DNA from: Fodinibius salinus
Lineage (GTDB): Bacteria; Bacteroidota; Rhodothermia; Balneolales; Balneolaceae
Length of the DNA stretch: 64,000 nt
Reading direction: 5' to 3'
Assembly: GCF_008124865.1 (NCBI RefSeq)
Contig: NZ_VNHY01000002.1
Coordinates: 372,001 to 436,000 of the forward strand
The position numbers and the translations under genes are program-made. The notes under the pieces were generated by a model. It worked only from the letters and a program-made list of their open reading frames with translations. It was not told where the DNA came from and did not search any database. Positions 11,620 through 37,598 of this stretch are shown here, piece after piece; the stretch's first letter is position 1; the number at the start of each line of letters is the position of its first letter.

Positions 11620-12321
11620 TTGGATATAGCAAATTCACATACAGCCGTGCTGTTTTTTAGCCGATCTGCACAAGTAGACGCAGACGCTAAAACCTTTTCT
11701 GATGACGGCCGGCACAGCAAAGACTGCCAAATTGCTCAGCAGCTCATTGCTCACACCCGCAAAGAGATTTCCAAAACAGAATTACCCTATTTTATTATTG
11801 ATGAAAGCCAACAAAAAGGTCATTCATTCGGAGAGCGATTTTCTAATGCCTTTGAAGAAATATTCGATCGGGGATTTGATTATGTGATCGCAGTAGGCAA
11901 TGACACTCCGGGGCTATCAAAAGAGCACATCATCGATACTGCCCAAAAGCTGCGTTCGGGATTTGATGTGGTATTAGGCCCCTCAACCGACGGGGGAATC
12001 TGGCTATCGGGCTACAGTAAAGGGGCTTTTAACAAAAAAGCATTCAAACAGCATCCTTGGCAGACAAATCAGCTTCTGTCAGCTATACGGCAATATACCA
12101 ATGCTCTTTCGGTATATGAACTACCGCAACTGGGTGATATCGACTCTCCGCAGGATCTTAACTCTTTTATAAATAGTGCTCCATACATTCTTCGGTCGCT
12201 GGCTACTCTTCTACTATCTATTCTCTCCACTACTTTAGGAGATATAAATAAGTTGCCGCCCACAAGATTAATTACCTTTTTTAATAAACCGAATGCCCTT
12301 CGCGCCCCTCCTTTAGTGTAA
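11620..12321 (+). CDS. DUF2064 / TIGR04282-type glycosyl- or nucleotidyltransferase-like protein
   Basis: 233 residues. GT-A-like fold shown by AVLFFSR at the N terminus, VIAVGNDTPGLS (metal/nucleotide Asp) in the middle, and VLGPSTDGGIWLSGYSK, the DUF2064 hallmark. Members are annotated as glycosyltransferases or CofC-like nucleotidyltransferases and are rarely characterised. It begins at TTG 11620, about 11 bp after AAAGAAG; there is no ATG in a better place. The last ~45 residues after DIDSPQDL are extra. It is the first gene of the operon that continues into the TonB receptor 43 bp later, so it may activate or modify the imported compound. Confidence 0.75.
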   Translation: MDIANSHTAVLFFSRSAQVDADAKTFSDDGRHSKDCQIAQQLIAHTRKEISKTELPYFIIDESQQKGHSFGERFSNAFEEIFDRGFDYVIAVGNDTPGLSKEHIIDTAQKLRSGFDVVLGPSTDGGIWLSGYSKGAFNKKAFKQHPWQTNQLLSAIRQYTNALSVYELPQLGDIDSPQDLNSFINSAPYILRSLATLLLSILSTTLGDINKLPPTRLITFFNKPNALRAPPLV

Positions 12322-12364
12322 GTGAACTTCTTTTCTTCTTTTCACTTACATCTATCCAATAAAT

Positions 12365-15300
12365 ATGTTTACCGGTATGAAACGACTTCTGTGCACTCTA
12401 TTTACTTTAGTCATTGCTACAACTGCATTCGGTCAGTCTAGGCTTGAAGTTTCTGTCATAAATAAAAACGACGGTCAGGTCGTAAAAGACTTGGCAATCA
12501 TTCTCGAAAACCAAGGTATTGGCTATCGACAAATTGACTCTACCAATGCCCAGGGCAAAGCATTCTTTGGCGGCCTGTCAACCTCTGGTTCTTATCGGGC
12601 GATAGCTGTTGAAAATGGTTCATACTACTCGCTCAACGCTGATGATATTGTATTTCGCTCCAACGATAAAAAGAGTATTACAATGGCACTGTTGCCCAAA
12701 GAAACACGCCAGTTGGAAGAGGTTAAAGTACAAGCCAGTAATGCTATTTCTCGTATTAATACTATCGATGCTGAGGTTTCATCGGAGCTTCAGGAACAGG
12801 ATATTGAAAATATCCCAATCGAAGGACGTACGGTAAGCAATTCTCTGCACCGCCTGCCTAATGTCACAAAATCTACCGGCTTTTATTCCGAGGCTCCCAA
12901 AGTAACCATCAACGGTGCTAACTCACTGTACACTAGCTATCTCATTGACGGCATGGACAACAATGAACGATTTCTGGGCGGCCCTCGCTTCCGGATTCCC
13001 ATTGGCTTTTCAAAAAACATCACCGTGCTGGCTAATAACTATTCTGCCGAATATGGACAAACAAGTAACGGCCTATTCAATGTAACAACCAAGTCGGGCA
13101 GCAATAAAATAAGTGGAGAAACTTATTATAATGTGCGTCCCGGTTCTGTTATTGATGCCTCTTCTCCCTTCAATCAAACCGACCTTTCCGGAAATGCCGT
13201 CGACGACGGCTTCCAACGGCACCAGTTTGGACTGGGCGTTGGTGGACCTATCAAAAAAGATAAAACCTTCTTCTACCTTAACGCAGAACAGACCATCGGT
13301 ATAAAAGATAACCTGCTCAACGTTCCCGAGCTGGGCGTTAATACCACTGTTCAGGGTCGCAATAACTACAGCCTACTCTCCGGCAAAATTGACCACAACT
13401 GGAGCGGCAACTTTCGTTCTTCACTGCGCCTGCACAAAGGGTTTGTGAGTATTGACCGGCAGGGCGGTGGACTCAACGGCGGCGTGACTTTCCCCGAAGC
13501 AGCTAATGAGCAAAGCCGTAATTCTTTTACCGCTGCATTACGTAATGTCTATAACGGCAGCGGCTTTACCTCCGAAACAAATTACCAGTATGCTACCTTC
13601 AACTGGATTTTCACCAAACCCAATACCACCGGCGTACCCTCCGTTAATGTGCTAGATCCGCAGGGACAAACGATTGCAAAGCTTGGTGAATCTTTTGGGA
13701 ACTTTGACATCCTGCAGACCATACACCAGGTACAGCAAAAATTCACCTTCTACCGCGGCAAGCACACCATTAAAGCCGGGCTGGATTTTATTGGTTCTAT
13801 CCACAATGATACCCGCGGTGGCAACGCCAAAGGCTTCTACAGGGTACAGCTCAACCAACAGCAACTCAACAATTTACGGTCACAAAATCTGGGCCGTGAT
13901 CTGTCGTACCGGGATATCCCCTCGGGCGTGCAGGTATTGTCGAATACGATAGAGCTTCATCCCAATACCTTTAGCGGCAGTCAATCTATTTACAGTGCGT
14001 ACATTGAGGATCTATACTCGGTTAATAATCAGCTGAATCTAACTTTTGGGCTGCGTTATGATTATGACAACCTCTCAAAAGCCGGCGCCGATCAGGGAGA
14101 TTTCAATAATATATCTCCACGCTTTAACCTTAACTACCGCCTGAATGATAAAAGTAGTTTCCGCGCCGGGTATGGGCTTTTTTATGGACGCATCCCATAT
14201 ACTATTTACAGTGATGCGGTAGCCGGCAGCTCTAATGCACCCGATTTTAAAGAACAGCTTCGACTACTCAGGCAGCAAGGCTTTTTACCTTCCGATACCA
14301 ATATTGACAGGATCACATCTAATGGTAATGCCAGTGCTACCGAGACTAATGTTGCTTACCTTCAGGGATCAACAAGTAAAGATTTTGCCAACTCCGACGG
14401 CTATGCATTTAGTAATCAGAAGACCATTCTTAATCCCAATGGTCTTGATAATCCCTATTCGCACCATTTTACCCTGGGATACCAGCGGCAGCTCCGCGAA
14501 GATGTGCTCTTTTATGTTGATCTGATTCACAAACGCGGCTTTAACAAATTCCGGCTGGCTGATGTCAATACCCCCTCACCATACGAAGTGAATGACCCGA
14601 ATGCGGGCCCTTCTGATGTTCGATCTCAACGGGTGGCTGATGCTACGCGTCGCGTTCCCATCCGGTATGACAACCAAGGCAATCCCTTTGCTCTTAGCAA
14701 TGGCGATACGCTGCGCAATATAGCCCGGCGCGTGACCATGACCCAAAGTAAAGGCGAATCGCGGTACTGGGCCGCCAATTTCAATCTACTTAAAAGTAAG
14801 GGTAGCAGTAGTTACAGTTATCGTATCAGCTATACAATTTCGAGCCTGCGTAACAATACCGAAGACATCAATTTTGAAGCCGAAGACGCTAATGACTTTT
14901 CGGATGAATGGGGACCATCAATCAACGACCGGCGTCACGTACTAAGCGCAGTTGGCACATATTATCCCATTGACAATTTAGGCATCACGCTTACTTCGCT
15001 TATCCAAAGCGGTCAGCCCGTAAACCGCATTCCTGATGCCACTCAATTTGGCGGTACCACTGATCTTAACGGGGACGGCAGCAGTCGCGCCGTACAATAC
15101 ACCGGCAAAACCGATCGCGCGCCGGGTGCTACACGTAACGACAAACGACTGCCGTGGTCTTACACTTTTGATATGAGCCTGCAATACCGTATCTCTATTT
15201 TTGGAAATAACGCCCTACAGTTACGAGCTGATGTTTTTAATGTGCTTAACACCACGAACTATAGCGGCTACACTAGTAATGCTACAGTCAGTAATCAAAT

Positions 15301-15391
15301 CCAGGTAGGCCTTATTGATCAAGACCAGTTTGTATATCGTAATGCTGCACCACCCCGGCAGTTCCAGTTCAGTCTGAGCTATAAATTTTAA
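12365..15391 (+). CDS. TonB-dependent outer-membrane receptor with N-terminal carboxypeptidase-like domain
   Basis: 1008 residues. Signal peptide (cleavage after AFGQ, residue ~24), a CarboxypepD_reg-like beta domain (~25-115), a plug domain with PKVTINGANSLYTSYLIDGMDNN, and a 22-strand-type barrel ending FQFSLSYKF with the terminal aromatic needed for outer-membrane insertion. It transports a substrate across the outer membrane using TonB energy. An internal ATG at 12377 could be the true start. It sits between a DUF2064 gene and a complete ABC importer, so it most likely feeds the same substrate to the YnjB-like binding protein. Confidence 0.93.
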   Translation: MFTGMKRLLCTLFTLVIATTAFGQSRLEVSVINKNDGQVVKDLAIILENQGIGYRQIDSTNAQGKAFFGGLSTSGSYRAIAVENGSYYSLNADDIVFRSNDKKSITMALLPKETRQLEEVKVQASNAISRINTIDAEVSSELQEQDIENIPIEGRTVSNSLHRLPNVTKSTGFYSEAPKVTINGANSLYTSYLIDGMDNNERFLGGPRFRIPIGFSKNITVLANNYSAEYGQTSNGLFNVTTKSGSNKISGETYYNVRPGSVIDASSPFNQTDLSGNAVDDGFQRHQFGLGVGGPIKKDKTFFYLNAEQTIGIKDNLLNVPELGVNTTVQGRNNYSLLSGKIDHNWSGNFRSSLRLHKGFVSIDRQGGGLNGGVTFPEAANEQSRNSFTAALRNVYNGSGFTSETNYQYATFNWIFTKPNTTGVPSVNVLDPQGQTIAKLGESFGNFDILQTIHQVQQKFTFYRGKHTIKAGLDFIGSIHNDTRGGNAKGFYRVQLNQQQLNNLRSQNLGRDLSYRDIPSGVQVLSNTIELHPNTFSGSQSIYSAYIEDLYSVNNQLNLTFGLRYDYDNLSKAGADQGDFNNISPRFNLNYRLNDKSSFRAGYGLFYGRIPYTIYSDAVAGSSNAPDFKEQLRLLRQQGFLPSDTNIDRITSNGNASATETNVAYLQGSTSKDFANSDGYAFSNQKTILNPNGLDNPYSHHFTLGYQRQLREDVLFYVDLIHKRGFNKFRLADVNTPSPYEVNDPNAGPSDVRSQRVADATRRVPIRYDNQGNPFALSNGDTLRNIARRVTMTQSKGESRYWAANFNLLKSKGSSSYSYRISYTISSLRNNTEDINFEAEDANDFSDEWGPSINDRRHVLSAVGTYYPIDNLGITLTSLIQSGQPVNRIPDATQFGGTTDLNGDGSSRAVQYTGKTDRAPGATRNDKRLPWSYTFDMSLQYRISIFGNNALQLRADVFNVLNTTNYSGYTSNATVSNQIQVGLIDQDQFVYRNAAPPRQFQFSLSYKF

Positions 15392-15463
15392 TTAGAATAA
15401 CAGCTTACACAATATATCGTCTTTAAATTTTTGACATCTTATTCCATACTTAAAAATTGTTAG

Positions 15464-16678
15464 ATGAAATTCTTTTTCTATTACGTTCTTATTTTTTCTG
15501 TACTGCTGTTTGCTTCATGCAGCAGTTCACCCGATAACCAAACTGATCTGCAAAACCTTTCTTGGGATCAAATCCTGCAAAAGGCCGAGGGACAATCTCT
15601 GAATATGATGATGTGGCAGGGTGATCCCAACATCAACAAATACATGCAGCAGTATGTAGTGCCGCAGGTTAAAAAGCAATTCGATATTGACCTGAATGTT
15701 TCCAACGGGCAGGGGAGCACCATCGTGTCAGTGCTCATGAGTGAGCTTGAGGCCGGTCAGCAGCAAAGCGAACTAGATCTGGTATGGATCAATGGGGAAA
15801 CCTTTTATCAGCTACGAGAAATCGACGCCCTCTATGGTCCCTTCGTTTCGCAACTGCCCAACAGCAAATTTATCGACTTTAGTAATCCCTTCATAAAATA
15901 CGATTTTCAACAATCCATCAATGGCTATGAAGTTCCCTGGGGCAAGGTACAGTTTACCATCATCTATGATTCGGCCCGTGTATCATCACCACCCACAAAT
16001 CGACAAGCCCTCAGGCAGTATGTCAAAACCCATCCCGGGACATTTACCATCGCCAACGACTTTTCGGGAATGACCTTCCTTAAGTCATTGCTCATTGGTA
16101 TGGCCGGTAAGGGTACGCTAAGCGGTGAGTTTAATGAACAAGCCTATCAAAAATACTCCGAGCGTCTCTGGAATTATATCAACGATATAAAGCCATATTT
16201 TTGGAAAAATGGAGAAACTTTCCCTTCGAACGTGACGGCTATGCACCAGCTTTTTGTTAACGGAGAGCTCAATTTTACGATGAGCAACAACGATACCGAA
16301 GTGGATAATAAAATTTTGGAAGGATTCTTTCCCCAAACAGCACGTGCGTATGTATTTCAAAAAGGTACTATTCGAAATTCACACTATGTGGGCATACCCA
16401 AAAATAGTACCCACAAAGCAGCAGCGATGGTTGTCAGTAATTTTCTAATTTCTCCCGAAGCCCAATATCGCAAAGCACGTCCCGATATCTGGGGCGACGG
16501 TACAGTATTAAGTAAGTTGAAGGTTCCTCCAAAATGGCAACAAAAATTTGCGGCTATGCCCCAACGGTATTATGCTCCACCGCGGGATTCCCTGCAGGAC
16601 CACGCCCTGCGTGAACTGGCCCCGGAATATATGATTCGACTTTATGAGGATTTTCGAACAGAAATTATTCAAAAATAA
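15464..16678 (+). CDS. ynjB: ABC transporter substrate-binding lipoprotein, YnjB-like
   Basis: 404 residues. Lipoprotein signal ending LFASC. The mature part follows the E. coli YnjB pattern: a WDQILQKAEGQS start, LNMMMWQGDPNINKYMQ, SELDLVWINGETFYQL, YGPF and a VPWGKVQFTIIYD segment. YnjBCD systems are catalogued as putative thiamine-type importers, but the true substrate is not established. The permease gene begins inside its last 35 bp. The upstream TonB receptor and the downstream phosphorylase and kinase argue for a nucleoside-like ligand here. Family firm, substrate unknown. Confidence 0.88.
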   Translation: MKFFFYYVLIFSVLLFASCSSSPDNQTDLQNLSWDQILQKAEGQSLNMMMWQGDPNINKYMQQYVVPQVKKQFDIDLNVSNGQGSTIVSVLMSELEAGQQQSELDLVWINGETFYQLREIDALYGPFVSQLPNSKFIDFSNPFIKYDFQQSINGYEVPWGKVQFTIIYDSARVSSPPTNRQALRQYVKTHPGTFTIANDFSGMTFLKSLLIGMAGKGTLSGEFNEQAYQKYSERLWNYINDIKPYFWKNGETFPSNVTAMHQLFVNGELNFTMSNNDTEVDNKILEGFFPQTARAYVFQKGTIRNSHYVGIPKNSTHKAAAMVVSNFLISPEAQYRKARPDIWGDGTVLSKLKVPPKWQQKFAAMPQRYYAPPRDSLQDHALRELAPEYMIRLYEDFRTEIIQK

Positions 16679-17525
16679 AGTAGAAGCTACGGGCTTGCTC
16701 CTTTTCCTTCTGCTTGCAGTGCTTCCGCTGCTGCTGGGTATTATCTATGCGCTGCTGTATAGTCTGGGCATCACCGGACTGGTCAGCGACGGCTTTACCC
16801 TGAAATACTGGCAACAGGCATTCACCGATATTGAGCTCTGGTATTCCATGGGCTACACCTTCTATATTGCCCTTGCTACCATCACGCTGACTATCGCGGG
16901 CGCACTGTTGTTAACTATTTATCTTAAAGAACCCTTACAACAGGGCTTTGCCGGCTTTTCAATCTATGTGCCGCTGGCTTTTCCGGCAATTGTTGTTGCT
17001 TTCCTGATCTTCCAGCTGGCTTCTCAATCGGGATTTTTTGCCCGCATTATCTATCAACTGGGATGGATATCCAGTACAGCTCAGTTTCCCGAATTAGTCA
17101 ATGACACCTATGGTATTGGAATTATTGCCGCTCATACCTTTATGGCACTGCCTTTTTTTACGCTCTATTTTATAAATCTCTATGATCAGGAAAATATTAA
17201 TCAGCTTGCAAAAGTTGGGCAAACGCTGGGAGCATCGAGCGCCCAGCAACACCGGCGGATCGTCGTACCCATTCTGCTAAGGCGTGCCTTTCCAACTCTT
17301 ACCCTATACACCATTTTTGTCATGGGATCTTACGAGATTCCACTCATTGTTGGTCGCCAATCTCCGCAGATGATATCGGTACTTGTCATTCGCAAACTGC
17401 GTAAATTTAATCTCTCCGATATTCCGGAAGCTTATATTTCGGCACTGCTTTTTATAACGCTAATCATTATTGGGCTTACGCTTATTTTTAAGAACCGAAA
17501 CTTCAGCTATGACCTCGATCAGTAA
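16644..17525 (+). CDS. ABC transporter permease, YnjC-like (first half)
   Basis: 293 residues with about six membrane helices and a BPD_transp_1 EAA loop (GQTLGASSAQQHRRIVVPILLRRAF) that docks onto the ATPase. ATG 16644 overlaps the binding-protein stop by 35 bp. In E. coli YnjC both permease halves are fused in one protein; here they are two genes, this one and the next, overlapping by 17 bp. Together they would form the channel. Confidence 0.9.
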   Translation: MRIFEQKLFKNKVEATGLLLFLLLAVLPLLLGIIYALLYSLGITGLVSDGFTLKYWQQAFTDIELWYSMGYTFYIALATITLTIAGALLLTIYLKEPLQQGFAGFSIYVPLAFPAIVVAFLIFQLASQSGFFARIIYQLGWISSTAQFPELVNDTYGIGIIAAHTFMALPFFTLYFINLYDQENINQLAKVGQTLGASSAQQHRRIVVPILLRRAFPTLTLYTIFVMGSYEIPLIVGRQSPQMISVLVIRKLRKFNLSDIPEAYISALLFITLIIIGLTLIFKNRNFSYDLDQ

Positions 17526-18288
17526 ATCAAAATCAATGGCCGCTCGGATGATCGCTTTGGCCTTTGTATTTCCGGTGTTGTATCTGCTAGTACTTTCGCT
17601 AGCGGACAGCTGGATTTTTCCTCAGCTTCTTCCCGAAGCGCTCACTCTAAAACGATGGGGAACACTTGTGGGCGGAGCTAATAATCTTTGGGGAAGCCTC
17701 TTGTTATCACTGATAATAGCTTTTACCGTTGCTACAGTTTCTACTATTTGCGGATTTTTTACGAGTAAGCACCTTGCCTATCACCCTAACCGTAGCCTTT
17801 GGATGCGGCTTTCTTACTTCCCCTTTGTGCTGTCGCCGGTGATATACGCTGCTGTACTTTATTATTATTTCATTCGGCTTGGACTATCCGGCAGTATTAT
17901 GGGCGTGATTCTTGGGCAGCTGCTCATTGCTTATCCCTACAGTGTTATTCTTTTTAGCGGCTTTTGGAGCAAACGGATGCTCCATATCGAAAAGCTGGTA
18001 CAAACACTGGGCGGCCACCGATGGCAAACCTACCGGCGTGTGCTATTGCCGATGGCTCAGGGTCTGCTTCTGGTTTGTTTCTTTCAAACTTTTCTAATTT
18101 CCTGGTTTGAATACGGTCTCACCACCATCATCGGGGTAGGGAAAGTGCAAACGCTAACACTGAAAGTTTTTCAATATATTAATGAAGCCTCCTTTTACAA
18201 TGCGGCTTTAAGCAGCTCACTGCTTGTACTTCCGCCTATAATTCTTCTTTATTTCAACAAGCGCTATCTTTTTCAAAAACGATGGTAA
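17509..18288 (+). CDS. ABC transporter permease, YnjC-like (second half)
   Basis: About 259 residues with six membrane helices and an EAA loop (VQTLGGHRWQTYRRVLLPMAQG). I chose ATG 17509 over the TTG at 17470 because the extra 13 residues would only re-read the tail of the previous gene. It partners the preceding permease. Its stop overlaps the ATPase start as TAATG. Confidence 0.9.
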   Translation: MTSISKSKSMAARMIALAFVFPVLYLLVLSLADSWIFPQLLPEALTLKRWGTLVGGANNLWGSLLLSLIIAFTVATVSTICGFFTSKHLAYHPNRSLWMRLSYFPFVLSPVIYAAVLYYYFIRLGLSGSIMGVILGQLLIAYPYSVILFSGFWSKRMLHIEKLVQTLGGHRWQTYRRVLLPMAQGLLLVCFFQTFLISWFEYGLTTIIGVGKVQTLTLKVFQYINEASFYNAALSSSLLVLPPIILLYFNKRYLFQKRW

Positions 18289-19016
18289 TGCCCTTACAAG
18301 CTAATAATATATCAAAACAATTTGGTGGAGAAACAGTGCTCTCGGAACTGAGTCTTCAGCTTAAGGATCAAGAAACACTCAGTATCCTTGGGCGGTCCGG
18401 TTGTGGAAAAACAACCCTTCTTAAAATTTGCGCTGGCCTACAAGATTCAGACTCAGGATTGGTTACCATTGAAGGTACCAAGATCTGTTCGCTGTCTCCA
18501 CAGAATCGTCCGGTGGTCTATCTGTATCAAGAAGCCTTGCTGTTTCCTCATTTGAATGTATTTGAAAACATTGCTTTTGGTCTTCGTCTCAGAAACAAAG
18601 CTGAGGAGGATATCTCAACCCAAACTAATGATATGATTACCAAACTGGGGCTTGATGGCATGGCTCAAAAAATGCCGCATCAGCTATCTGGCGGACAAAA
18701 GCAGCGGGTTTCTTTTGGGCGGGCACTCATTACCAATCCCAAAGTACTATTGCTGGATGAACCATTTGGGAACCTTGATGCCGACACGCGCAGCCAAATG
18801 CAACGCTTTTTCAAAAAAATTGCCCAAGAATTTGAAATTACCGCCATTTTTGTGACACACAATATTAAGGAAGCCATACTGATGGGCGACCGTATCGCCA
18901 ATATGAATAACGGGAAGCTAACTATTTATCCATCACTGGAAGAATTTTTAGCCGCTGACCATAAGGCCGTACAAGAAGAAATTAAGTTTTGGAAATTAAT
19001 AAGCAATACTAACTAA
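18288..19016 (+). CDS. ynjD: ABC transporter ATPase, YnjD-like
   Basis: About 242 residues. All ATPase motifs are present: Walker A GRSGCGKTT, Q-loop LYQEALLFP, signature LSGGQKQR, Walker B VLLLDEP, D-loop and switch His in THNIKEA. The start is taken at the ATG of TAATG (18288); the ATG two codons earlier is also in frame. It energises the two permeases before it. A 15-bp gap leads to the phosphorylase gene, so it is in one transcript with the salvage enzymes. Confidence 0.92.
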   Translation: MPLQANNISKQFGGETVLSELSLQLKDQETLSILGRSGCGKTTLLKICAGLQDSDSGLVTIEGTKICSLSPQNRPVVYLYQEALLFPHLNVFENIAFGLRLRNKAEEDISTQTNDMITKLGLDGMAQKMPHQLSGGQKQRVSFGRALITNPKVLLLDEPFGNLDADTRSQMQRFFKKIAQEFEITAIFVTHNIKEAILMGDRIANMNNGKLTIYPSLEEFLAADHKAVQEEIKFWKLISNTN

Positions 19017-19031
19017 ACAGTTGTTTAATAT

Positions 19032-19820
19032 ATGGAATCCCTGGCTGTGATACTTGGAAGTGCATTTGGAGATGAAATCCCTAATTCTCTAGACATGCAG
19101 CCCATTAACATTGACACCCAATGGGGTACGCAAAAAATTTACGGTACTACCAATAAAGAAGGCCGCAAAATATATACTATTTTGCGGCACCAGCACCCGC
19201 ACCGACTACTGCCCAATCAAATTAACTACCGGGCACAGGCTGCGGCATTGCAATCTGTAAACTGTGGCGCGCTCCTTATAAACAGCTCTGTAGGAGTTCT
19301 AACCCCTGACTTACCCCTATACAAACCCCTTATACTAACCGATCAGTTAATGCCCGAAAATCGGCTTCCTGACGGATCTACCTGTACTATGTTTACAGAA
19401 CCTTCGGACAGCCAGGGACACCTTGTACTGAATGACGGACTGTTTAGCCGTGCCCTTTCGCAACAAATAGCCGGTAAGCATTCAGGCAGGATTCACAATC
19501 CCGATGTAGATATTGTCTTTGTGTATGCGGGTGGCCCCCGGAGCAAAACAGCAGCTGAAAACCAAATGTGGGCACAACTGGGCGGGGACGTCAACTCGAT
19601 GACCGTGGCCCCTGAAGTAGTCTTGGCTAACGAACTTGAAATACCAACGGCCGGACTGGTGGTGGGGCACAAATATTCGGTACCAGAGATTGACAACCCT
19701 GAAGAAGCCGATATCGCGGATACTCTGAATGAAGCGAAGTCAGCTACTAAAGATATTATTATTGATTTCTTACAACACGGTTCACCGGTTGAATTCCAAA
19801 ATCATATTTACCGCTTTTAA
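19032..19820 (+). CDS. MTA/purine-nucleoside phosphorylase family enzyme (PNP_UDP_1)
   Basis: 262 residues matching 5'-methylthioadenosine phosphorylase/PNP class I. Signatures are the N-terminal ILGSAFG phosphate loop, RHQHPHRLLPNQINYRA (counterpart of the RHG.H..P..VNY segment), LINSSVGVL and QLGGDVNSMTVAPEVVLANE. The family cleaves a nucleoside with phosphate to a base and a sugar 1-phosphate. The usual MTAP substrate-site residues are altered (RHQHPHR instead of RHGRxH), so the substrate may not be MTA itself. It ends in TAATG overlap with the kinase gene, implying the two enzymes act together on what the ABC system imports. Confidence 0.85.
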   Translation: MESLAVILGSAFGDEIPNSLDMQPINIDTQWGTQKIYGTTNKEGRKIYTILRHQHPHRLLPNQINYRAQAAALQSVNCGALLINSSVGVLTPDLPLYKPLILTDQLMPENRLPDGSTCTMFTEPSDSQGHLVLNDGLFSRALSQQIAGKHSGRIHNPDVDIVFVYAGGPRSKTAAENQMWAQLGGDVNSMTVAPEVVLANELEIPTAGLVVGHKYSVPEIDNPEEADIADTLNEAKSATKDIIIDFLQHGSPVEFQNHIYRF

Positions 19821-20872
19821 TGCTGAGTAAGCAACAGATTTTAAAAATTGTTTCTGAAAAACTGCCCGATTTTGAGCCTGAGTCATCGTTGCAGTCTCTT
19901 GAAGGTGGGAATCTTAATCACGTTTGGAGACTAAAAGGATCATCCCGCAATTTAATTTTGAAGATGGCTCCTCCTTATATTGCAGCCAATCCCGAGGTCC
20001 CGCTGGATCCAAAGCGCATACAATTTGAATCCAAAGCGCTTCAGCTTTTTGGGAATAGGGAATTGCTGAATCCTCTTGCCTCCAGAGAAATACGCCCGCC
20101 GAAACATGTTTTTTATGATAATAAGCAACACCTGTTAGCTACTGAAGATCTGGGGCACCTACCAGATATTAGTAGATTGTCGAATACAGAAATCTCTCCC
20201 CAACAAGCCGGCAGAAGGCTCGGTAGTTTTATTGGCAATATACATAGGCTGAGCTACAATGATCTTGATCTTAAAAAGCAGTTTACCAATACCAGTATCC
20301 AAAAAACCCGGCGCGAAGTGCAGTATAATGCTGCAGCTGAGTATGCCCAAAGGGGAGGGGGTACGGAATTAAAAGCTATTCAGTCAGAAACACAGAAGCT
20401 GGGGAAAGATTTGCTTGAATCCGGCTGCTGTTTAATTATGGGCGACCTGTGGCCCTCTTCCATATTAATAGATAATGACAAGCTTCGCATTATTGACTGG
20501 GAGTTCAGCCACTTTGGGCGTCCACTACAGGATGTAGGTCATTTTGCCGCTCATTGCTGGATGCTGGCACATACATCATCAGAAGCCAATAGAAAAAAAA
20601 TGTTCAGAGAGCTGTGGCAATATTTTTGGGAAAGTTACCAGGAGGGCACAGAAAGTAACTTTAGCCATCTTTATGACAACCAAGAATACCGGGATACAAC
20701 TACCCACATTGGGGCGGAAATTTTAATTCGGGCAGCAGGTTCCTTTAAGAACGGCTACGTGTATGACGGGTATGATAAGGGACACCCAATGGTGAAAGAA
20801 GCCGTCGAACAAGCCGCATCGCTGATTAGGGCAGATAATCTATCGGATTTATGGCAAGCAGACTTCAAATAG
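19820..20872 (+). CDS. APH-fold kinase, S-methyl-5-thioribose kinase (MtnK)-like
   Basis: 350 residues. Kinase features are EGGNLNHVWRL (glycine loop region), LILKMAPPYI (Lys), MGDLWPSSIL (catalytic loop; MtnK has HGDLWxxNI) and IIDWEF (Mg-binding Asp). The order and the KMAPPYI segment are typical of methylthioribose kinases; more distant relatives include thiamine and choline kinases. The catalytic-loop H is Met and the Asn is Ser (SSIL), so activity needs checking. It is last in the operon, overlapping the phosphorylase stop. Known MtnK uses MTR made by a nucleosidase, not a phosphorylase product, which makes the pairing odd. Confidence 0.75.
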   Translation: MLSKQQILKIVSEKLPDFEPESSLQSLEGGNLNHVWRLKGSSRNLILKMAPPYIAANPEVPLDPKRIQFESKALQLFGNRELLNPLASREIRPPKHVFYDNKQHLLATEDLGHLPDISRLSNTEISPQQAGRRLGSFIGNIHRLSYNDLDLKKQFTNTSIQKTRREVQYNAAAEYAQRGGGTELKAIQSETQKLGKDLLESGCCLIMGDLWPSSILIDNDKLRIIDWEFSHFGRPLQDVGHFAAHCWMLAHTSSEANRKKMFRELWQYFWESYQEGTESNFSHLYDNQEYRDTTTHIGAEILIRAAGSFKNGYVYDGYDKGHPMVKEAVEQAASLIRADNLSDLWQADFK

Positions 20873-22315: not shown

Positions 22316-23089
22316 ATGTACGAAAATGTAGATCCCCAAAACTGCAACCCACCCGGAACTTTTCTAACAAAGCTTCCTCATCCGGCAAACAGTAACCGGT
22401 CAGTAGAAAAAGCCGTAATTATGGAACACCGCTTCGCCTTTTTCTTTTGGATGAAGTGGCGAAATCAGCTTCAGGATATCCAATCGGATCAGCAAGCACC
22501 AACCTTGGTTACCATTGACTGGCACCGCGACTTTGCCCCACCTACTGATAAACAAAAAAAATCTCTGCTTCAGCTTGATCAATCGAACCTATCAGATGTC
22601 TCGAACTACGTATGGGCACGGTTTGCCCAAACCAATGACGCACACATTCGCTGTGCCACATGGCTGAACCTTGTGGGAGATGTGATTTTACTCAAAAATA
22701 CAGCGGAAGAAATGCATCAAACCATTATGGATCACGAGGGCAGGGAGCACACTTTTTATGAATTTGGAGATTTTGAGCGCTTTCAGAATTTTATCCTCGA
22801 TCGTGAGGATCAGCACATTTTTTTTGATATTGATTTGGATTACTTTATTCACGGGAAGGGCAAACGACACTACTCAGAGGATTTTAGTCGCTATACTGAT
22901 GAGGAAATTAAGACTGTAATAGATCCCCAGCAACCGGTGTTTCAACATATCCTACCCAAATGTGAAGGCATAACCCTTGCACAAGAACCGGGCTATTGTG
23001 GAGGGATGCTCAATTCTGCTCATATTATGACAGTCATATATGAACAATTGTTTGCAGCAAATGGGGACTGGCCACAGCTGCAGAACTAA
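22316..23089 (+). CDS. UPF0489 family protein
   Basis: 257 residues. Motifs VTIDWHRDF and FFDIDLDYF are the conserved Asp/His pairs of UPF0489 (C5orf22-like), predicted to have an arginase/deacetylase-like fold that binds divalent metal. Near the C terminus EPGYCGGML matches a further conserved block. No signal peptide, so it is cytoplasmic. No enzyme activity is known for the family in bacteria. It is a single-gene transcript facing the outer-membrane receptor, with a terminator between them. Confidence 0.75.
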   Translation: MYENVDPQNCNPPGTFLTKLPHPANSNRSVEKAVIMEHRFAFFFWMKWRNQLQDIQSDQQAPTLVTIDWHRDFAPPTDKQKKSLLQLDQSNLSDVSNYVWARFAQTNDAHIRCATWLNLVGDVILLKNTAEEMHQTIMDHEGREHTFYEFGDFERFQNFILDREDQHIFFDIDLDYFIHGKGKRHYSEDFSRYTDEEIKTVIDPQQPVFQHILPKCEGITLAQEPGYCGGMLNSAHIMTVIYEQLFAANGDWPQLQN

Positions 23090-36435: not shown

Positions 36436-37260
36436 TTATTCGGCTTTTTTTGCATATAAAGTAATTGAAAAGATGCCAGTCCCAGAATTTTTGAATGCTT
36501 CCAGCTCATCAGCAGCTAAATACTTGGAAAGAATTTCATCGGGAAGCCTAATACGTTTTTCTTTTTGAATTTTTAGATCTGTGAATCCTGCTTTCCGCAC
36601 AATTTCCAGATACTCTTTTTTGTTAATAGCACCGGACACACACCCAGCATACATTTCGGCGTCTTTATTAAGCTTTGGTGGTAAATCACCAGAAGTAACT
36701 ACATCCGAAATACTAAAATGCCCGCCTGGCTTTATAATACGATACGTTTCCGCAAAGGCTTTGGGTTTGTCAGGTACCAAGTTCATTACGCAGTTGCTTA
36801 CCACCACATCGGCCAGACCATCTTCAAGAGGCATGTCCTCAATATCCCCAAGGACAAACTCCACGTTTTCAAATCCCAGCTTGTCAGTATTGGCCTCAGC
36901 CTTATCAATCATTTTCTGCGTCATATCCAGACCAATAACCCGTCCTGTACTTCCTGTAAGCTCCCGCGCAACGAAACAGTCATTGCCTGCCCCCGATCCC
37001 AGATCCACAACGGTATCACCTTTAGAGATATGCGCATGCTCAGTAGGTAGACCACAGCCCAATCCCAGGTCGGCATCTTGATTGTAACCACCCATTTCTG
37101 AATAATCATCAGCAAAAATAGCATAATCTACAGTATCACAGCCGCAGGAAGTACCACAGCAAGATCCTTCATTTTCGGACCTCGATTGCTCACTGATAGC
37201 AGCATATTTTTTCTTAACTGTTTCTTTCAATTCGTCAGAAGTTTGTTTATCGGTTTTCAT
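36436..37260 (-). CDS. arsM: Arsenite methyltransferase
   Basis: 274 residues. SAM-dependent methylation of As(III) to volatile or less toxic methylarsenicals. Rossmann motif VVDLGSGAGNDCFVA, LDMT acidic loop, VVVSNCVMNLVPDK with the conserved Cys, and AGCVSGAI with the second catalytic Cys. An N-terminal Cys-rich stretch (ENEGSCCGTSCGC) adds arsenic-binding thiols. Starts 2 bp after the ArsR gene and so is cotranscribed with it. Confidence 0.92.
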   Translation of the reverse strand: MKTDKQTSDELKETVKKKYAAISEQSRSENEGSCCGTSCGCDTVDYAIFADDYSEMGGYNQDADLGLGCGLPTEHAHISKGDTVVDLGSGAGNDCFVARELTGSTGRVIGLDMTQKMIDKAEANTDKLGFENVEFVLGDIEDMPLEDGLADVVVSNCVMNLVPDKPKAFAETYRIIKPGGHFSISDVVTSGDLPPKLNKDAEMYAGCVSGAINKKEYLEIVRKAGFTDLKIQKEKRIRLPDEILSKYLAADELEAFKNSGTGIFSITLYAKKAE

Positions 37261-37262
37261 AA

Positions 37263-37598
37263 TTAGCAGGAGTCTTCGGAGATTGCAATTCGTAGATCAG
37301 TAGCAAAAGCAGTAATCAATTCCTCAAATTCTGTGACCACTTCTTCATTCAGACAGTAACAGGTACGCACGCCGTCCACTTCACCTTTGATAATTCCCGA
37401 CTTTTTGAGCGCTTTCAGATGTTGCGATATTGTGGACTGAGCAAGGGGTAGTTCATTGGTAATATCTCCGCAAATGCAGGTGGCACGCTCGGCCAGAAGC
37501 TCCAAAATAGCGATGCGCGCCGGGTGACCAAGCACCTTTGCCAGTTCGGCGGTACGTTTCTGTTTTTTATTAAAAAGCTGAGCTTTTGTAATTGCCAT
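37263..37598 (-). CDS. arsR: ArsR family arsenic-responsive repressor
   Basis: 111 residues, winged HTH with LAKVLGHPARIAILELLAE and QSTISQHLKALKKSGII. Candidate metal-binding thiols are in TCICGDI, RTCYCLNEE and the C-terminal DSC. It heads the two-gene operon with arsM and should repress it until As(III) binds. A palindrome overlaps its start region. No arsenite exporter gene is next to it. Confidence 0.9.
   Translation of the reverse strand: MAITKAQLFNKKQKRTAELAKVLGHPARIAILELLAERATCICGDITNELPLAQSTISQHLKALKKSGIIKGEVDGVRTCYCLNEEVVTEFEELITAFATDLRIAISEDSC

Follow-up and report, generated by a model that had tools for sequence, protein, structure and literature searches.

The MTA phosphorylase and MTR kinase of methionine salvage act on 5-substituted ribose, and arsenosugars are likewise 5-substituted. 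For ABC importers of the YnjBCD type, which came up in one paper of the literature searched, we know of no proven substrate. In oxo-arsenosugar synthesis, arsenic is adenosylated by the radical-SAM enzyme ArsS (TIGR04167; Cheng et al. 2021, as cited in PMC12159101).

An eight-gene operon of Fodinibius salinus resembles each of these systems in part. Its phosphorylase has the fold and the phosphate- and ribose-binding residues of MTA phosphorylase, but lacks the adenine site and scores below the equivalog cut-off. The operon kinase shares the fold and the catalytic residues of MTR kinase and is also below its equivalog cut-off. A phosphorylase paired with a kinase, as in the operon, would be redundant in methionine salvage. 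The importer is of the same type as that of E. coli (PRK11622 / NF008633), with a binding protein above the family cut-off that nevertheless falls in a separate clade. Other YnjBCD loci carry genes for CMD, rhodanese, TVP38, an FAD oxidoreductase and a CDP-alcohol phosphotransferase, none of which is present in the operon. Finally, a DUF2064 protein is common to the operon and to the ArsS gene set (TIGR04167, TIGR04169, TIGR04282 and TIGR04283), and some ArsS loci have a purine nucleoside phosphorylase; unlike that set, the operon lacks ArsS and adds an importer and a kinase.

The explanation that we favour, tentatively and a shade short of evenly balanced belief, is import of a ribosylated non-purine compound in place of ArsS, the cargo being most likely of arsenosugar type because the operon substitutes for ArsS. 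Riboside uptake and cleavage are probable. The narrower proposal, a cargo of the arsenosugar class (5-deoxy-5-dimethylarsinoyl ribosides), is plausible but rather doubtful.

Layout and conservation of the operon

The window analysed here is a stretch of 64,000 nucleotides (contig NZ_VNHY01000002.1, positions 372,001 to 436,000). An ORF check gave eight co-directional ORFs on its + strand, at 11620-20872. The first encodes a DUF2064 protein of an operon-specific subfamily (11620..12321; DUF2064, 65 bits) and the second a TonB-dependent outer-membrane receptor (12365..15391) with an OMP_b-brl_4 barrel (194 bits), a plug and a CarboxypepD_reg-like N-terminus. They are followed by a YnjB-type solute-binding lipoprotein with an invariant Cys19 (15464..16678; NF008633, 388 bits, cut-off 203), the ABC permeases YnjC-a (16644..17525) and YnjC-b (17509..18288), both assigned from family matches and orthologues, and the ABC ATPase YnjD (18282..19016), assigned from a family match. 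An MTAP-fold phosphorylase with an altered base site (19032..19820; PNP_UDP_1, 70 bits) and an APH-fold small-molecule kinase of MTRK/PsiK type (19820..20872) complete the operon. The intergenic distances, in gene order, are +43, +72, -35, -56, -7, +15 and -1. The mechanical start of YnjC-b is TTG 17470; ATG 17509 agrees with the orthologues and reduces the overlap with YnjC-a from -56 to about -17. A promoter scan gave a signal no better than that of shuffled sequence.

The identical gene order was found in three other Fodinibius genomes (protein identity 43-80%), and also in G354, GSL.Bin13, GSL.Bin8 and Tc-Br11. The grouping is not due to chance, since the same genes recur in the same order in relatives. 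The eight + strand ORFs and their conserved order bear out the initial annotation, which had described a single operon leading from the outer membrane to cytoplasmic enzymes. Receptor orthologues are 75-80% identical within Fodinibius and 45-52% in wider relatives. The two loci of GSL.Bin13 (L044 and L045) lie on separate contigs but agree in all gene coordinates and matches, which probably reflects duplication during assembly or binning. A ninth gene lies 3′ of the kinase in the three other Fodinibius genomes (L039:14557-15363, L040:14266-15063 and L041:14153-14947) and is absent from the window; it encodes a secreted protein of ~265 aa, apparently made of two similar halves, with no family match above cut-off. 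Exporter-like ABC-transporter genes are often found directly upstream of the operon (L047, L071, L073, L078 and L079). In the window, an ORF at 22316-23089 (+) bears a faint resemblance to peptide arginases, its 23.9 bits being far under the cut-off.

The co-occurrence search proposed with the initial annotation was carried out for the phosphorylase, kinase and YnjB genes. Among 58 related genomes, close homologues of the phosphorylase and YnjB are confined to the same four. A sample of 394 genomes from the phylum contains 15 with the phosphorylase; 14 of these have a strong kinase match, a strength approached in no other genome; in the remaining one (G175) the phosphorylase lies at a contig end. 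Ten of the 15 also have YnjB, as do 10 further genomes. A scan of about 85,000 species restricted the close phosphorylase clade to Bacteroidota in the wide sense, and many of the genomes concerned come from brines and salt lakes.

Loci of Salinibacter type consist of DUF2064, receptor, phosphorylase and kinase genes without ABC genes (L046, L048, L049, L072, L073 and L079), and no YnjB was found in five sampled genomes of the Salinibacter-like genus. Conversely, three loci (L074, L076 and L078) carry YnjBCCD with the phosphorylase, with or without the kinase, and no adjoining receptor. In G089 and G343 (L128 and L129) the ABC genes are sited elsewhere in the genome. The phosphorylase-kinase pair is the core of the operon and the ABC part is optional. 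Separation of the ABC genes from the enzymes had been named at the outset as evidence against a common pathway; this is partly the case, in the Salinibacter-type loci, G089 and G343. Other YnjBCD systems have quite different neighbours, but the operon YnjB forms a clade of its own.

Phosphorylase, kinase and the enzymes that replace them

The best NCBIfam match of the phosphorylase is MTAP (TIGR01694), at 92.2 bits against a cut-off of 274.85, and that of the kinase is MTRK (TIGR01767), at 82.4 bits against 275. Since both enzymes are far below the curated cut-offs, the names MtnP and MtnK are unsuited to them. The gene names given at first agree with our results at the level of fold throughout; as functional assignments, MTA phosphorylase and MtnK do not stand.

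The predicted model of the phosphorylase (pLDDT 89) has MTAPs as structural neighbours, with a TM score of about 0.8. The residue roles in human MTAP we take to be established. The phosphate- and ribose-binding residues are kept (R52, H53, M190 and T191, corresponding to human R60, H61, M196 and T197), while the adenine-binding residues F177, S178, D220 and D222 are replaced by S/G/T, K, H and Y in 22 out of 22 homologues. The motif GPRFS(S/T) of MTA phosphorylase reads GPR(S/G/T)KT in all 22, and TDYD reads GHKY, except for GAKY in L044; the window enzyme has S171 K172 and H213 K214 Y215. Because the adenine-binding residues are gone and the phosphate and ribose residues stay, the sequence suggests that the aglycone is probably not a normal purine. 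The Lys, His and Tyr of the base site are suited to an anionic group or to a polar one of another kind. A phosphorylase family with a rebuilt base site lets a change of substrate be traced residue by residue.

The kinase retains K48, and its catalytic D209 and metal motif D226-W-E228 are invariant in four orthologues, in agreement with the D / D-x-E pattern of the APH fold. It matches structure 2olc. In G219 and G231, which have ArsS, relatives of the kinase stand alone, a point against the import reading.

Related loci carry other enzymes directed at the ribosyl bond. Among genomes with YnjB and no operon-type phosphorylase, DUF2064-YnjBCCD in three loci (L120-L122) precedes genes for an IU-type nucleoside hydrolase (107-117 bits) and an MTRK-like kinase, and SusC/SusD replaces the receptor; in a fourth (L123, from G223) the nucleoside hydrolase is in place and the kinase does not adjoin. 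L192 combines DUF2064, a receptor 49% identical to that of the operon, the kinase and a nucleoside hydrolase, without ABC genes. An ADP-ribosylglycohydrolase adjoins kinase relatives in L184, L190 and L191. In a third type of locus (L124-L126), the receptor and YnjBCCD are followed by a radical-SAM/SPASM-like protein, and DUF2064 is present in two of the three. This radical-SAM/SPASM-like family (motif ESIYWVFTQLCNDxCxHCYNLSGPRG; L124:6079-7041, L125:5228-6223, L126:12505-13404 and L131:8086-9252) is associated with YnjBCCD from two distinct YnjB clades, and its host genomes lack ArsS. A Peptoclostridium plasmid carries a divergent nucleoside hydrolase (FDCDNTFG..DVDDG) directly 5′ of YnjBCCD (L139:5026-5901).

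The YnjB proteins of phosphorylase, nucleoside hydrolase and radical-SAM loci, that of the operon included, form one clade with full support (100/100), distinct from the E. coli type; the diagnostic residues of the operon YnjB are Q83, T113 and Q149, where the others have D, N and mostly G. The DUF2064 proteins of the three locus types all belong to one subfamily, which has lost KTRL and has an RxPP-like tail. Given the common YnjB clade, the diagnostic residues and the common DUF2064 subfamily, the three locus types likely share one kind of cargo. Ribosyl cleavage is the chemistry common to the phosphorylase and hydrolase types. In the hydrolase loci the same DUF2064 protein is accompanied by an importer or receptor and a kinase related to those of the operon, but a nucleoside hydrolase stands in for the phosphorylase, which supports the nucleoside-like (ribosyl) cargo of the initial annotation.

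Distribution of the operon relative to ArsS

NCBIfam names the family of the operon's DUF2064 protein arsenosugar glycosyltransferase (TIGR04282), and ArsS was searched for on this account. The operon protein scores 92 bits against the TIGR04282 cut-off of 134. The N-terminal K-T-R-L loop is absent from all 16 operon copies and present in 8 of 8 ArsS-type copies, and the operon protein ends in an LRAPPL-like tail, with [RK]xPP in 15 of the 16 copies. The operon DUF2064 protein is a divergent paralogue of that in the ArsS gene set.

In 26 chosen genomes, ArsS was found in all five operon-negative Balneolaceae and in none of the five operon-positive ones. Of the 394 genomes sampled, 155 have ArsS above cut-off, comprising 0 of the 25 operon genomes (those with the operon's phosphorylase or YnjB) and 155 of the 369 others. 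The hypergeometric P, which ignores kinship, is 2e-6; it is 1e-5 without three doubtful genomes and 5e-4 for the phosphorylase alone. Within Fodinibius, the four operon-positive genomes all lack ArsS and the seven operon-negative genomes all have it (Fisher P 0.003). The same contrast separates G354 from nine congeners in genus g19, G195 from G134, G258 and G324 in g69, and G128 and G157, with the kinase plus an ADP-ribosylglycohydrolase, from G235 in g92. G195, G128 and G157 were noticed afterwards and lie outside the 25. Families f12, f29 and f32 likewise show the contrast. The mutual exclusion of operon and ArsS is a new finding, seen also inside four genera; it rests perhaps on six to eight independent switches, with kinship controlled only in part. 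A literature search for a link between ArsS and the phosphorylase found nothing.

The F. salinus genome (G000) itself lacks ArsS, and arsenosugar biosynthesis proper was for this reason rejected as the role of the operon. The neighbourhoods of ArsS indicate what is kept. An operon-negative Fodinibius (G002) has the cluster TIGR04283-TIGR04282-ArsS-TIGR04169 (peroxidase-like), and in G032, which belongs to a different genus, the genes are an MBL-fold-like one, one of 159 aa, CMD, ArsS, TIGR04282 and TIGR04283. At the place matching G032, the operon-positive genomes G000, G004, G009 and G354 have a 154- to 176-aa gene, TIGR04282 and TIGR04283, without CMD or ArsS; the MBL-fold-like gene is also found there in G000, G004 and G009. 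These four genomes keep the later steps of the arsenosugar pathway and not the first. Both glycosyltransferases are kept in G016 and G027 too, with neither ArsS nor the operon, which speaks against the import reading. The ArsS cluster of G258 further includes a purine nucleoside phosphorylase, an ArsM-like methyltransferase and an acyltransferase. The operon-type genome G223 has a cluster of CMD, GT2, phosphorylase, TIGR04282-like and kinase-relative genes that corresponds to the ArsS gene set without ArsS; its kinase relative ties the kinase to that set.

ArsM above cut-off is missing from roughly a third of the operon genomes, a patchiness that fits import rather than general arsenic physiology. 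As a discriminating marker ArsM was uninformative, being found in operon-positive and operon-negative Fodinibius alike. In the window, an arsR-like regulator gene followed by arsM (344 bits, cut-off 263) lies at 36436-37598 (-), about 15.5 kb downstream of the operon.

Candidate cargoes and the importer

Under the arsenosugar reading, the receptor would move a ribosylated compound across the outer membrane and the YnjB lipoprotein would pass it to YnjC-a/C-b/D. The MTAP-fold phosphorylase, or the nucleoside hydrolase in relatives, would then split the ribosyl bond and free a probably 5-modified ribose, and the MTRK-like kinase would phosphorylate the sugar or the aglycone. The operon would in this way supply by import what ArsS makes de novo, a 5-substituted adenosine, and the released sugar would be used by the TIGR04282/TIGR04283 glycosyltransferases kept elsewhere in the genome. 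The aglycones of marine arsenosugars are glycerol, phosphate, sulfonate or sulfate, for which a base site remodelled to contain Lys and His would be suitable. Against this scheme, the phosphorylase already yields a sugar-1-phosphate, so that a kinase step after it is not accounted for, and we know of no precedent for phosphorolysis of a non-N-linked riboside by the MTAP fold. It is conceivable, though we regard it with considerable doubt, that this is the first uptake and salvage route for arsenosugars or their headgroup, in which bacteria that lost ArsS import preformed algal or cyanobacterial arsenosugars, cleave them by means of the modified MTAP-like phosphorylase or a nucleoside hydrolase, and supply their own glycosyltransferases with the 5-modified ribose. 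A 2025 review describes the mechanisms of arsenosugar uptake as largely unknown (PMC12608789). The strict and repeated exclusion merges operon and ArsS into one testable question with a short ligand list, and the proposal, if true, would provide a substrate class for a single branch of the YnjBCD importers.

The strongest alternative, although unlikely, is that the operon salvages some other unusual nucleoside, such as a charged-base modified nucleoside of tRNA. A phosphorylase, hydrolase or ADP-ribosylglycohydrolase together with a kinase is a general pattern of riboside salvage, and the Lys, His and Tyr of the base site suit a charged base; the ArsS exclusion would then be coincidental or ecological, and is left unexplained. 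The salvage of queuosine and queuine uses a nucleosidase plus a radical SAM enzyme, and the related loci also show nucleoside hydrolase and radical-SAM variants. Queuosine salvage, considered on account of these variants, was rejected as QueF does not track the operon: it is absent from 20 of 20 Balneolaceae tested, whatever their operon status, and several operon genomes outside that family have it. A literature search for a queuine link found nothing. The initial annotation had also suggested a search for riboswitches upstream in relatives; none of the TPP, preQ1, purine or other types was detected in the window or in eight related loci, and the lack of preQ1 and purine riboswitches speaks against unusual-nucleoside salvage.

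Uptake of a metal chelate or siderophore-like compound, with the enzymes opening a ribosylated ligand, is improbable. Such uptake usually involves a receptor together with an ABC importer, and ferric-binding proteins are among the Foldseek matches of YnjB, along with polyamine and sugar binders. The YnjB model, however, aligns best, and without discriminating between them, to binders of sugars and glycerophosphodiesters; moreover, no metal-regulated neighbours were seen, and the enzyme set is directed at ribosyl groups. Assignment of a ligand class from the YnjB model was abandoned, since maltose, glycerophosphocholine, sulfoquinovose, polyamine, iron and dinucleotide binders all align.

Salvage of MTA or 5′-deoxyadenosine has MTAP and MTRK as the closest curated families and MTAPs as structural neighbours in its favour. 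With both scores far below cut-off and the adenine site missing from all 22 family members, we consider it very improbable, and the thio- or deoxyadenosine cargo first envisaged is not upheld. The thiamine-type cargo raised there, by which the importer would take up thiamine or a precursor, is scarcely credible: ThiC is absent from 34 of 36 genomes tested and YnjD resembles ThiQ at the family level, but the absence of ThiC is seen regardless of the operon, operon-type loci are present in both genomes that do have ThiC, no TPP riboswitch was found, and the phosphorylase, hydrolase and DUF2064 protein would have no role.

Classic YnjBCD loci with the CMD, rhodanese, TVP38, FAD-oxidoreductase and CDP-alcohol phosphotransferase genes are represented by L133, L134, L140 and L144. 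CMD and FAD-oxidoreductase genes flank ArsS too, and because they adjoin both, the YnjBCD group as a whole may share a metabolism with ArsS.
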